Translations under genes and position numbers: made by a program
NCBI GenBank assembly: GCA_021779935.1
Contig: JAJXZT010000001.1
Span: 124,001 to 188,000, forward strand
DNA length: 64,000 bases
Direction of reading: 5' to 3'
Origin: Acidobacteriota bacterium
GTDB taxonomy: Bacteria; Acidobacteriota; Terriglobia; Terriglobales; Acidobacteriaceae
In this document: in pieces, positions 13,620-42,633 of the stretch
Position numbering within the stretch: the first letter of the stretch is position 1
How the letters are laid out: each line of letters starts with the position of its first letter
The notes under the pieces: model-generated
The model's database searches: none
What the model was told of the DNA's origin: nothing
What the model saw: the letters and a program-made list of their open reading frames with translations, nothing else

Positions 13620-13708
13620 TGGTGCCGGGAGGGGGAATCGAACCCCCACAGTCCTTTCGGACCTGCGGATTTTAAGTCCGCTGCGTCTGCCAGTTTCGCC
13701 ATCCCGGC
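13620..13708 (-). tRNA. tRNA-Leu (anticodon UAA), CCA encoded
   Basis: Read on the minus strand, the acceptor arms GCCGGGA / TCCCGGC pair fully and the 3' CCA is encoded. The anticodon arm is GCGGA-CTTAAAA-TCCGC with anticodon TAA. A long class II variable arm (AGGTCCGAAAGGACT) is present, as required for leucine, and the T arm is GGGGG-TTCGATT-CCCCC. Length is 89 bases with CCA. Confidence 0.97.
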
Positions 13709-20001: not shown

Positions 20002-20112
20002 TTGTCTTCCGGAACCTGTTTTCTTGTCAAGCCCCTTCAAGACATAACTCGTAGCAAACAAAGCAAATCGAGTTGGTCTGTTTCCCCGCGCAATCTGCTA
20101 TCCTAAAAGTAG

Positions 20113-20138
20113 AGGGACTTGTCATTCGACAAGTCCCT
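20113..20138. terminator. Perfect 11-bp hairpin with T-rich tail
   Basis: AGGGACTTGTC / GACAAGTCCCT arms with a four-base ATTC loop, then GTTCTTTT on the plus strand. It could terminate plus-strand transcription or end a short RNA starting near the TATCCT at about 20098. On the minus strand it lies 160 bases beyond rfbH. Confidence 0.55.
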
Positions 20139-20182: not shown

Positions 20183-20288
20183 CAGATATCTGAAAACAAA
20201 CAACTTTAACTCGTTTATTTTCAGATATCTGCGGACGAATTCACCTAAATATTTGATTCGCCAATATTTAAAAACAGGGGGGTGGGGG
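20183..20288 (+). repeat. AT-rich palindromes plus G-run, copy 1
   Basis: An inverted repeat CAGATATCTGAAAA / TTTTCAGATATCTG (14 bp, loop 21), a second TAAATATT / AATATTTA (8 bp, loop 9), then TAAAAACA and a G6-T-G5 run at 20277-20288. The AAATATTT core and the TTTAAAAA-spacer-G-run are shared with the copy at 42246-42316. Confidence 0.7.
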
Positions 20289-20297
20289 TATCGACTA

Positions 20298-21611
20298 CTA
20301 CTTCTTCCCTGCGGCTTCACCCAGCGATGTCATCATGTATTGCAGCATCGCTTCCGTCAGTCCTGGGTACACGCCGATCCAGAAGACATTGTTCATCACG
20401 TAATCGGCGTTGGTCAGTTCCCCTGCAATGCGGAACTCGCAGTCCTTGTAGGCAGGTTGGCGCGTGAGATTTCCGCCAAACAGTAGTCGCGTGCCGATCT
20501 CGCGCAATTCCAGGTGATGGATCACTCGCTCGCGCGTCACGCCCGACTCAGGCTTCACCGCGATTGGGAATCCGAACCAGCTCGGATCACTCCCCGGTGT
20601 GGCTTCCGGCAGGAGATAGCGGTCCTGTAACGGCTCGAGCCCTTTGTGCAGCGTCGCAAAGTTCCGTTTGCGCGCCGCAATAAAGCCATCGAGTTTGTCC
20701 AGTTGCGACAAGCCAACGGCCGCTTGCATATCTGTGATCTTCAGGTTGTAACCGATGTGCGAGTACGTATATTTGTGATCGTATCCGTGAGGAAGCGATC
20801 CCAGTTGCCAATCGAACCGCTTGCCGCAAGTGTTCTCTTTACCCGGAGCGCACCAGCAATCGCGCCCCCAGTCGCGGAACGACTCGATCAGCTTCGCCAT
20901 TTGCGGCTTGTCGGTCAGAACGCATCCGCCTTCGCCCATCGTAATGTGATGCGCCGGATAGAAGCTCACCGTCGCCAGGTCACCGAACGTGCCCGCGTTC
21001 TGGCCCTTGAAGGTTGCGCCCAGCGCGTCGCAGCAATCTTCGATCAGCCAGAGACCATGCTTGCGGGCAAACGCCGCAACGGTCTTCACGTCGAATGGAT
21101 TGCCCAGCGTATGCGCAAAGATGATGGCGCGCGAGCGTGGGCTGAGCGCCGCTTCCAGCTTGCTGACATCGGCGTTATACGTACCGAGTTCCACGTCGAT
21201 GAACACCGGCACCGCGCGATTCTGGAAGATCGGATTCACCGTCGTCGGAAATCCCGCCGCAACCGTGATCACTTCATCGCCCGGCTTCAGTTGCCGTTCG
21301 CCCAGCGTTGGCGACGTCAGTACTGACATCGCAATCAGGTTCGCCGACGAGCCCGAGTTCACCAGCCGCGCACACCGAACCCCAACGCGATTTGCAAACT
21401 TCCGCTCAAACTCCTCCGCAAACCGTCCCGTTGTCAGCCAGAAATCCAGCGACGAATCGACGAGCGTCGCCACGTCCTTCCCGTCGAAAACTCGGCCTGA
21501 CACCGGCACTGGCGTCTCACCCGGCACAAACGGCTTCTTCGAAAAAGCCTCCCGCGAGTATTCGCCTACCAACTCCAGTATCTGTTTCCGTATCTCTTCC
21601 GCGCGGCTCAT
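20298..21611 (-). CDS. rfbH: CDP-6-deoxy-4-keto-glucose 3-dehydrase (E1, RfbH type)
   Basis: 437 residues of the DegT/aspartate aminotransferase fold. The PLP Lys of ordinary aminotransferases is replaced by His221 ([14 protein letters not shown]), the hallmark of E1. The [2Fe-2S] ligand spacing C-X57-C-X1-C-X7-C known for E1 is met exactly by C194, C252, C254 and C262. E1 with PMP dehydrates CDP-4-keto-6-deoxyglucose; a reductase (E3) then completes C3 deoxygenation to the 3,6-dideoxy-4-keto sugar. Its start overlaps the stop of rfbG by four bases, so the two are translationally coupled. No E3 reductase gene is seen in the window. Confidence 0.95.
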
Positions 21612-38926: not shown

Positions 38927-39037
38927 AAAAAGCCGGACACCGGCGACCCACTGCGCACGAAACTACCCGTTACCGTTGCTTCCTTCCGGACCTGGCGGGA
39001 TTGGCGGGGTTACGTCGCGTAGGACCGATGTCCGACC
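38927..39037 (-). ncRNA. ffs: Signal recognition particle RNA (small bacterial 4.5S type)
   Basis: On the minus strand the SRP core is read as CCAGGTCCGGAAGGAAGC, followed by AACGGTAACGGG. The long terminal stem pairs GGACATCGG near the 5' end with CCGGTGTCC near the 3' end. It finishes in a run of six T (38926-38931), a Rho-independent end. A TAGAAT -10 box sits at 39044-39049 just upstream, consistent with a start near 39037. It binds Ffh to target nascent membrane proteins; ftsY, its receptor, is at 54989. Confidence 0.93.
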
Positions 39038-41356: not shown

Positions 41357-42211
41357 CTAGAGCGTGCTTCCGCGCGTGAACCAGCGGCCGTCGATCCTCA
41401 TCGGAACGCCTTCGCCGTCCAACATCGACTCCGCGTTTCCGCCGCGCTTGGCGTGGATGTGGAGATGCGGTTCCGTCGTGTTGCCGGAGTTGCCCACGCA
41501 AGCGATCCGCTCGCCTGTCTTCATGGTCTGTCCAGATTGGACAACGATGCTGCCTTGCATCAGGTGTGCAAGGCCAACGTAAACGCCGGGAGAATCCGCG
41601 CAGCGGATGACGACGTGATTGCCTGCGGGATTCGCGCGATCCATCTCGCCGAGCGGCAGATCAGGATGACCATCGACAACAGCGGTGATGGTTCCATCGC
41701 ACGGAGCAACCACGGGACAACTGAAGATGCAGTAAGAACGAAGGTCTTTGGGATAGATGCCGCGAGCGCGGACGCCGAGGAAGTTCAGCTTTGAAATGTC
41801 GAGCGCGTAGCGCTGCGAGCGCGAGCGGCGATGATGGTTGAGGAGCTTGGAGTTTCCGCCCTGCGCGACGAAGAAGCTTCCTGACTCGAAGGGCGAACGC
41901 AGCGCGACAAACTGCTCACCGCGCGGCGCGCGGCGCGGGAACCAGTAGACGACAATGATGGCAAGAAGCGTAAGCGCCGCTGGAATCCAACCGAATTTAT
42001 AAAACGTCAGCGCGACGTAAGCGGCCGAGAAAACAAACGGCAAGTATCGACTCGTAACGTCCCAACGTGCGACGGCGATGAACCAGACAAAGATGAGCGT
42101 GGTAAAGAGAAACGCTCCGCTCGTCGCGGAGTCGCTCATCCAAACGCTCGACATCGCCGAGAGCGGCCAGAGAATGTAAATCGCGGCGCTGAAGTAAATG
42201 AGCCATTTCAT
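41357..42211 (-). CDS. M23-family peptidase with N-terminal membrane helices
   Basis: 284 residues, starting MKWLIYFSAAIYILWP. Two or three transmembrane segments lie in residues 1-90. The C-terminal LytM domain has a beta-rich block with LAHLMQGS and PHLHIH, which supply two zinc ligands. In the usual first motif (HxGxD) the His position is Arg (QRYALDI), but NHH a few residues before may serve. It would cleave peptidoglycan cross-bridges or act as an activator. It ends two bases after the convergent tgpA gene. Confidence 0.85.
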   Translation of the reverse strand: MKWLIYFSAAIYILWPLSAMSSVWMSDSATSGAFLFTTLIFVWFIAVARWDVTSRYLPFVFSAAYVALTFYKFGWIPAALTLLAIIVVYWFPRRAPRGEQFVALRSPFESGSFFVAQGGNSKLLNHHRRSRSQRYALDISKLNFLGVRARGIYPKDLRSYCIFSCPVVAPCDGTITAVVDGHPDLPLGEMDRANPAGNHVVIRCADSPGVYVGLAHLMQGSIVVQSGQTMKTGERIACVGNSGNTTEPHLHIHAKRGGNAESMLDGEGVPMRIDGRWFTRGSTL

Positions 42212-42245
42212 CGTTCAGAAATTCTAAACGACAGAGGTTGCGACA

Positions 42246-42316
42246 CCCCCACCCCCTATTTTTAAATTACTTGTTTTCAAATATTTACGAATATTCCCGC
42301 GTAAATATTTGAAAAC
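42246..42316 (-). repeat. AT-rich palindrome plus G-run, copy 2
   Basis: On the minus strand the order is palindrome, TTTAAAAATA, then G5-T-G5 (42246-42256). The palindrome is a perfect 16-bp inverted repeat, GTTTTCAAATATTTAC / GTAAATATTTGAAAAC, with a 12-base loop. It begins 34 bases upstream of the M23 start codon. It is the same type of element as that at 20183-20288. Confidence 0.75.
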
Positions 42317-42633
42317 AAAGGGGAAAAATTCCAAATATTACAAAAGAAAGCTGTTCGCTCTTGGCCCTTGGCCAACAACGACAAAGGCCCGCGCGGGGCG
42401 GGCTCGGATGTTTGGTCTCTACATCTAGTGTGACACAGCAGAGGGGGAAAAGGTGACATCGATTTGGAAACTATATTTCCTTGAGAATCAGATAGCTGGA
42501 GGAAATGTGTGATCTGCGTCCTCTTGACAGGTGATCGAGAAGTCGCGAGTCACGAGTCACGAACAGCAACGGATCACCACCGAGGAATTTTCGAATTGCC
42601 GGATTTTCGAATTTGAAAGGCCAAAAAGAGACG

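Follow-up and report, generated by a model that had tools for sequence, protein, structure and literature searches.

At positions 20183-20288 of the window, the whole 64,000-nucleotide stretch of DNA analysed here, the plus strand carries an AT-rich inverted repeat, a second stem, TTTAAAAACA and a G6-T-G5 run (Table 1). Nine bases lie between this run and the stop codon of a convergent gene, rfbH (NCBIfam NF011936), which confirms the original prediction of two inverted repeats and a G-run within ten bases of that stop. These features form the right-hand part of a longer unit, which begins about 150 bases further upstream. A second copy of the unit is found on the minus strand. This site had been placed near a start codon, and it is real: a 19-bp palindrome and a G5-T-G5 run are present, and the run stops 34 bases short of the ATG of a co-directional gene (42211). 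Each of the two window copies is about 265 bp long.

Both window regions fold better than all of 200 shuffles (z -4.3 and -3.2). An intrinsic-terminator scan (GC-rich stem and T-run) detected nothing at 20183-20288 or 42246-42318; a hairpin of this kind lies further upstream, after the leader. Rfam 15 gave no match at gathering score at either window site, and three matches, all below gathering scores, on seven loci of the element. Elsewhere in the window, Rfam recognises a bacterial small SRP RNA and a tRNA, both on the minus strand (38934-39031 and 13623-13708, respectively).

Table 1 Features of the two copies of the unit and of the adjoining genes (window positions)
Feature	Position	Strand	Basis
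First AT-rich inverted repeat, copy 1	arms CAGATATCTGAAAA 20183-20196, TTTTCAGATATCTG 20218-20231	+	sequence, fold
Second stem-loop, copy 1	20231-20261	+	fold
TTTAAAAACA, copy 1	20267-20276	+	sequence
G6-T-G5 run, right-hand end of copy 1	20277-20288	+	sequence, family comparison
Right block, copy 1	20187-20294	+	model R3, 75.9 bits, E 8.2e-16 (copy among the 30 source sequences of R3)
Leader, copy 1 (type 2)	20026-20119	+	model R2, 45.5 bits, E 2.8e-13 (among the 30 source leaders of R2)
Extended -10 pattern TGCTATCCT, leader of copy 1	20096-20104	+	TG..A...T columns invariant in 30 aligned leaders
GC hairpin directly after leader, terminator-like, copy 1	20113-20138	+	fold -19.6 kcal/mol, z -6.4
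rfbH, convergent neighbour outside the element	20298-21611	-	NCBIfam NF011936, 730.8 bits (cut-off 423)
19-bp perfect AT-rich palindrome, 10-base loop, copy 2	arms 42271-42289 / 42300-42318	-	sequence
G5-T-G5 run, right-hand end of copy 2	42246-42256	-	sequence
Right block, copy 2	42239-42347	-	model R3, 108.5 bits, E 1.3e-23 (copy among the 30 source sequences of R3)
Leader, copy 2 (type 1)	42411-42513	-	model R2, 90.3 bits, E 2.9e-27 (among the source leaders of R2)
Extended -10 pattern TGTCACACT, leader of copy 2	42435-42427	-	pattern
GC hairpin after leader, T-rich tail, copy 2	42387-42403	-	fold -12.2 kcal/mol, z -1.9; 10 of 200 shuffles fold as well
Co-directional neighbour gene outside the element	41357-42211	-	weak resemblance to M23-type peptidoglycan endopeptidases; NCBIfam matches all below cut-off

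The unit recurs throughout the genome

The genome of origin amounts to 4.49 Mb in 72 contigs. In line with the original prediction, which had proposed a genome-wide search for the motif, further copies were found: a model built from 17 right blocks identifies at least 32 copies at E ≤ 2.8e-11, a lower bound with 150 of 312 candidates scored. Chance or base composition was rejected as the origin of the motif. Indeed, the window has two matches to TTTAAAAANAGGGGG when up to one mismatch is allowed, against none in 100 dinucleotide shuffles, and a looser pattern has 22 overlapping matches in the genome versus 0 for the reversed control. Among the 20 GGGGGTGGGGG sites of the genome, 16 belong to the same element, one to a diverged copy and three are unrelated, as judged by eye; here, the reversed control is uninformative, since GGGGGTGGGGG is identical when read backwards. 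A search with a strict palindrome pattern gave 0 matches, and sequence models were used instead. A search with the leader consensus returned 31 matches in the genome. Contig ends fall inside or beside several copies.

The first alignment (A1) comprised the GGGGGTGGGGG sites minus the three unrelated ones and the diverged copy L017, plus L029, which has a G5-A-G5 run. Right blocks were aligned for 30 of the 32 copies (A4), those of contigs C49 and C61 being left out; the leaders of both are counted among the leader-consensus matches, and the C61 copy was also read. Leader alignments A2 and A3 include L017 and L109. The copies have diverged from each other, with a mean column identity of about 70%, so that recent movement is not evident. 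L017 itself (contig C67, 106915-107203) has a leader with 72% identity and a one-T G-run, around another AT-rich body. At L098 (contig C52, 71904-72043), a leader and hairpins precede a co-directional frame, and no palindrome or G-run was seen after them.

The exact motif occurred in one of 100 genomes, namely the one studied here. Ten matches in a contig collection from other organisms were judged unrelated by eye, and the pattern of inverted unit and G-run had 0 matches in viral contigs.

A promoter-like leader and a terminator-like hairpin

Read from the left, the unit starts with a leader. In most copies, a GC hairpin with a T-rich tail follows; then come a variable spacer, AT-rich units that form a palindrome and, last, the G-run. 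The leader, of about 100-140 bp, emerged as a second conserved block in the aligned upstream sequences and exists in two types, each represented by one of the window copies. The columns that never vary in 30 aligned leaders include TG..A...T and, after it, TAG. We take TG..A...T to be the pattern of an extended -10 promoter. The leader appears as a promoter-like block directed into the unit. According to model R2, itself built mostly from copies of this genome, 29 of the 30 right-block loci have a leader upstream, on the same strand; the thirtieth locus is cut by a contig end.

Directly after the leader, a terminator-like hairpin is found in 25 of 29 copies of this genome, versus 0.62 expected from dinucleotide shuffles. 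The same holds for relatives, with 15 of 28 loci versus 0.44 expected; 29 leader loci had been fetched, and one (L130) was too short for this test. The letters of the hairpin vary with the leader type and the pairing is kept, for example GAGCCCGCC..GCGGGCTT and AGGGACTTGTC..GACAAGTCCCT. The GC hairpin lies within about 50 bases of the promoter-like pattern.

The palindrome and the G-run

The spacer consists of short degenerate repeats and is variable. It is followed by AT-rich units of about 25 bp, one of which is inverted, giving a long palindrome. When 30 copies are aligned, 10 of 19 pairs of the palindrome show changes on both sides, and 75.6% of the cells are paired, versus 33-52% when the partner is slid by 1-3 columns. 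On the five covariation measures, between 5 and 17 shuffles out of 500 do as well as the alignment, which makes this control modest. The structure tested was taken from one of the aligned sequences, and sliding by -3 and -2 columns still yields 8 double-change pairs versus the 10 observed; unconstrained RNAalifold on the first alignment predicted no consensus structure or pairs. Comparison of the copies thus argues moderately for a conserved pairing of the palindrome.

The G-run has the form G5-7-(T/A)-G4-6 in 27 of the 30 copies, with T in 16 and A in 11. It is an unbroken G6-8 in the three others, and the inner base is never C. The sequence 3' of the run varies among copies, TAC being found in 7 of 30.

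The genes beside the copies look varied

For 26 of the 30 copies, a GC3-rich open frame lies no more than about 103 bases from the right end. By this simple frame survey, which is not a gene finder, the nearest right-hand frames are convergent for 17 copies and co-directional for 13. The element thus recurs beside gene ends and gene starts alike, and the initial view that it is not a simple terminator holds. By eye, the right-hand neighbours look varied, so that a reading of them as one functional class was dropped, and no transposase was recognised among the 30. When these neighbours were compared with those of 23 of the 25 right-block loci fetched from relatives, one homologous pair was found to link them.

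An rfbH gene was detected at E ≤ 1e-60 in ten of 60 genomes of the family, including the one studied here. The nine other orthologues have no right block within the fetched locus and none has the unit at its 3' end. The 700 bases past their stops together contain a single long G- or C-run, an uninterrupted G6 at base 683 in one genome. No alignable empty site was found for the unit. In the 30 copies read, the left end of the unit is too diffuse to delimit a target duplication. No inverted copy of the right end was seen at the left end, either by eye in the 30 copies or among the matches of model R1.

Leaders and right blocks in relatives

Model R2 detects leaders in 41 of 150 genomes at E ≤ 0.01, including the one studied here, all from the same family. 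Right blocks are found in 10 of 150 genomes, again including this one. G037 has 19 of them, G031 10, G015 8, G006 4 and G054 2, with single ones in G051, G052, G103 and G093; the G093 match is weak and comes from another family. As for the genome of origin, the leader and right-block counts are lower bounds obtained from the part of the candidates that was scored. From the relatives, 29 leader matches and 25 right-block matches (nine genomes) were fetched and read.

In 12 of these 25 right-block loci, a run G4+-(A or T)-G4+ is found at the block end or at most 200 bases after it. The inner base is A in 10 of these strict runs and T in 2, and TACC comes next in 7. In the 13 remaining loci, a contig end cuts the run, or it is absent, shorter, unbroken or interrupted by two bases. 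At L165 and L169, two of the five G015 loci, a G7-A-G5 run is found about 65 bases past the model match, with extra AT-rich units between palindrome and run.

In G015, leader and right block occur together in all five fetched loci, on the same strand in four. In G037, a listed leader is near 3 of the 19 right blocks, as judged from coordinates (contigs C29, C32 and C94). The five G031 and four G006 right blocks that were read have no R2 match; by eye, they are preceded by other upstream sequences that recur among themselves.

In relatives, the same leader heads predicted endonuclease genes

In the relatives, the leader often stands ahead of a small gene. In the eight such loci that were scanned (L111, L113, L118, L119, L120, L122, L129 and L139), this gene belongs to the PDDEXK_5 family (PF11645; 40.9-72.4 bits, cut-off 26.1). 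A PDDEXK_5 gene follows on the same strand, 70-307 bp after the leader, in 23 of the 29 leaders listed out of 45 counted in six relatives. That leaders head genes in this way supports the leader being a real promoter.

PDDEXK_5 genes number 21 in G114, 16 in G036, 10 each in G044 and G023, 6 in G005, 4 in G055 and 1 in G001. With these relatives as positive controls, none was found in the genome of origin, G037, G015 or G031. Among the genomes compared, which were picked for one or the other property and not at random, the six rich in PDDEXK_5 have no right-block match and the four without the gene are the richest in right blocks. In most genomes looked at, one of the two forms, coding or non-coding, predominates. 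A strict rule by which a genome has PDDEXK_5 or the right block and never both was rejected, as G006 carries four right blocks and at least one PDDEXK_5 frame behind a leader (L122, 55.6 bits). G001 has its single PDDEXK_5 gene together with a non-coding leader unit that contains G-runs (L112). In the PDDEXK_5 units read, neither right block nor palindrome nor G-run was found within 1.5 kb downstream as a shared 3' end.

A phage origin was considered and rejected: a leader-linked PDDEXK_5 protein has distant phage matches only (less than 40% identity, 20 records) and no confirmed relative in viral contigs.

Several relatives, and the genome of origin at one place, have a second small frame after the leader. 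It has no Pfam match in the two examples scanned, and the frame after it is a DSPc-type phosphatase in the one example scanned. Hence, the leader stands before non-homologous genes, namely PDDEXK_5 and, at other loci, this unrelated small frame with a DSPc-type gene behind it. The case in the genome of origin is L109 (contig C55), where a diverged leader without hairpin is followed by a 126-aa frame of no Pfam family and then by a phosphatase-like frame. A similar pair of small and phosphatase-like frames comes after the leaders at L121, L126, L128, L133, L136 and L137 in relatives.

Discussion

The copy number, the anatomy, the fixed orientation, the leader common to relatives and the unshared right-hand neighbours at the loci compared are direct observations. 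Our preferred reading, which we put at slightly better than even (probability of roughly 0.55), is that the feature next to rfbH forms the right-hand end of a mobile-type intergenic repeat, non-coding and dispersed, that bears a promoter, whose copies spread to new gene borders and whose G-run ends transcription. Transcription from the leader, its arrest at the G-run and the movement of the unit are our inferences from the sequence comparisons. The promoter in the leader would make RNA towards the G-run and most transcripts would end at the GC hairpin. The RNA reading through would fold the AT-rich hairpin and then reach the G-run. Being on the RNA-like strand, the latter could form an RNA or RNA:DNA quadruplex, ending transcription before the neighbouring gene. 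Copies of the unit would move to new gene borders, no linked transposase having been found in this genome. The upstream hairpin terminator counts against this working model, because it would keep most leader RNA from the G-run. The divergence of the copies, the blurred left end, the lack of an empty site, the modest covariation control and the right blocks of relatives that have no strict G-run or no leader match also count against the preferred reading. As for the quadruplex, suggested from the outset, it is compatible with the conserved layout, in which exactly one T or A stands inside the run in 27 of the 30 copies; G5-T-G5 permits only a weak two-layer intramolecular quadruplex, unless it is formed between strands. 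It had also been suggested that the boundary of a transposon might account for both window sites. A mobile-element boundary is indeed close to what we find; a linked transposase, an empty site and a sharp left end, however, were not seen.

Several other readings were weighed. The unit may be a passive MITE-like element, with palindrome and G-run as recognition sites for a trans-acting transposase or nuclease, and with promoter and hairpin merely left over from a coding version since lost, like the PDDEXK_5 units of relatives. It is indeed multi-copy and non-coding, its neighbours differ between genomes, and the same leader heads PDDEXK_5 genes at 4-21 per genome in six relatives; in addition, no such gene was detected in the four genomes richest in right blocks (the one studied here, G037, G015 and G031), and no right block in the six PDDEXK_5-rich genomes, within this chosen set. 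However, no terminal inverted repeats were seen, the right end having no inverted copy on the left; the PDDEXK_5 units read show no right block over 1.5 kb downstream; the two forms are not strictly separated (L122 in G006, L112 in G001); and no transposase was recognised by eye among the right-hand neighbours of the 30 copies. We hold this reading to be possible and rather doubtful. Distinctly improbable, in our view, is a fixed host element that selection, and not movement, would have kept in place as a two-way transcription stop or as an insulator at gene borders. The conserved hairpin and palindrome would suit such a role, as would the closeness of 26 of the 30 right ends to a GC3-rich frame in either orientation. 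Yet right-hand neighbours are almost never common to the genomes compared, the nine rfbH orthologues of relatives all lack the unit at the 3' end, and a general insulator would call for more than about 30 copies per 4.5-Mb genome.

The direct and inverted AT-rich units also recall REP/BIME-type repeats moved by RAYT, a Y1-type tyrosine transposase, and tyrosine transposases with repeats have been reported from Koribacter (PMC3733652). Y1_Tnp genes are present in all five genomes searched. The genome of origin has five, and G031 has four matches, three of them at 1.90, 3.29 and 4.10 Mb. R3 matches were found in 2 of the 30 Y1 loci, both among the six of G037: at L200 (contig C88) and L204 (contig C70), the right blocks are about 0.9 and 1.0 kb from the Y1 genes. 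Against this origin, the five Y1 loci of the genome studied and those fetched from G006, G015 and G031 have no R3 match, and by coordinates the nearest copy in the genome of origin is about 10 kb from a Y1 gene. Neither GTAG nor CGTC, the tags of REP/RAYT repeats according to PMC3733652, was seen by eye at the feet of the palindrome in the alignment, and the G-run, leader and hairpin are not parts of REP. Such an origin is very unlikely. Next to no weight is left for an ordinary intrinsic terminator of rfbH combined with a chance G-run. With T-rich tails on either strand, the hairpin at 20113-20138 could serve as a terminator for rfbH as well, some 160 bases beyond the stop codon; the terminator scan, however, is blank at 20183-20288, and the genome has at least 32 copies of this right end, some of them ahead of gene starts. 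As a full explanation, an rfbH terminator is refuted by these copies.

Small dispersed intergenic repeats and mobile promoters are a known kind of element. Mobile promoters (Matus-Garcia et al. 2012, as cited in PMC8049555) share with the present unit a promoter-like sequence conserved at the DNA level upstream of unrelated genes, in many copies. Here, in contrast, a GC hairpin is present and, in the genome of origin, a non-coding body of palindrome and G-run replaces the gene. MITEs and small bacterial intergenic repeats are likewise short, non-coding, palindromic and dispersed at gene borders in many copies. The unit differs from MITEs in that no terminal inverted repeats were seen and in its promoter-like block, terminator-like hairpin and conserved G-run end. 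With REP/BIME and RAYT, the likeness resides in palindromic AT-rich units in both orientations and in the Y1 genes of the genome, whereas the unit has no GTAG/CGTC tag that we could see, no adjoining Y1 gene in the genome of origin, a G-run end and a promoter-like leader. The PDDEXK_5 units of relatives have the same leader, a hairpin in many cases and several copies per genome; they differ in carrying an endonuclease gene, not found in the genome of origin, and in having no right block at the loci read. Neither Rfam nor the literature searched, which left out most subscription papers, contained a description of the element. In the same searches, the combination of promoter-like leader, hairpin, palindrome and G-run, with a leader common to endonuclease units, was nowhere found described.

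The G-run resembles that of mitochondrial CSB II, given as G5AG7, G6AG7 or G6AG8 in PMC8780183, where CSB II is proposed to act in transcription termination via RNA or RNA:DNA quadruplexes. In CSB II, a single A separates two G-runs, which lie downstream of a promoter and on the RNA-like strand; here, the G-run lies on the strand of the leader in 29 of 30 loci. On the other hand, the present element is bacterial and dispersed, its second run is shorter, T is commoner than A in the genome of origin, and an AT palindrome stands ahead of the run. A more speculative proposal, which we think unlikely, would make the leader-headed units a new class of bacterial mobile element. In its coding form, a PDDEXK_5 endonuclease would copy itself to new gene borders. 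In its non-coding form, the palindrome and G-run end would work like CSB II, an RNA:DNA quadruplex stopping leader transcription and leaving an RNA-DNA hybrid that would be used in copying.

If our interpretation is right, a family of bacteria, probably Acidobacteriota, carries dispersed units of promoter and hairpin that have not been described before. Part of these units contain an endonuclease gene and others are non-coding, and they place promoters and structured G-rich DNA at gene borders. The units would provide a bacterial setting for testing whether a G-run with a single A or T can halt transcription as a quadruplex, the role proposed for mitochondrial CSB II, and would bear on how non-coding repeats without a linked transposase spread.

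Further repeats are seen to the left of the unit. At L050-L079, up to about 600 bp leftwards, degenerate micro-repeats (for example GAAACTC, GCTAAGA, ACCTAGC, CCTTCGTGT and AATCAGC) occur left of the leader and in the spacer. They differ from copy to copy, often keeping a similar order, and have the look of slippage arrays. Further left, a separate recurrent hairpin of approximate form GGGTGCCCCATATCTGCCAG...GGCAGATGTGGGTC is found at L050, L056, L060 and L063, and may correspond to the terminators of the left-hand genes.
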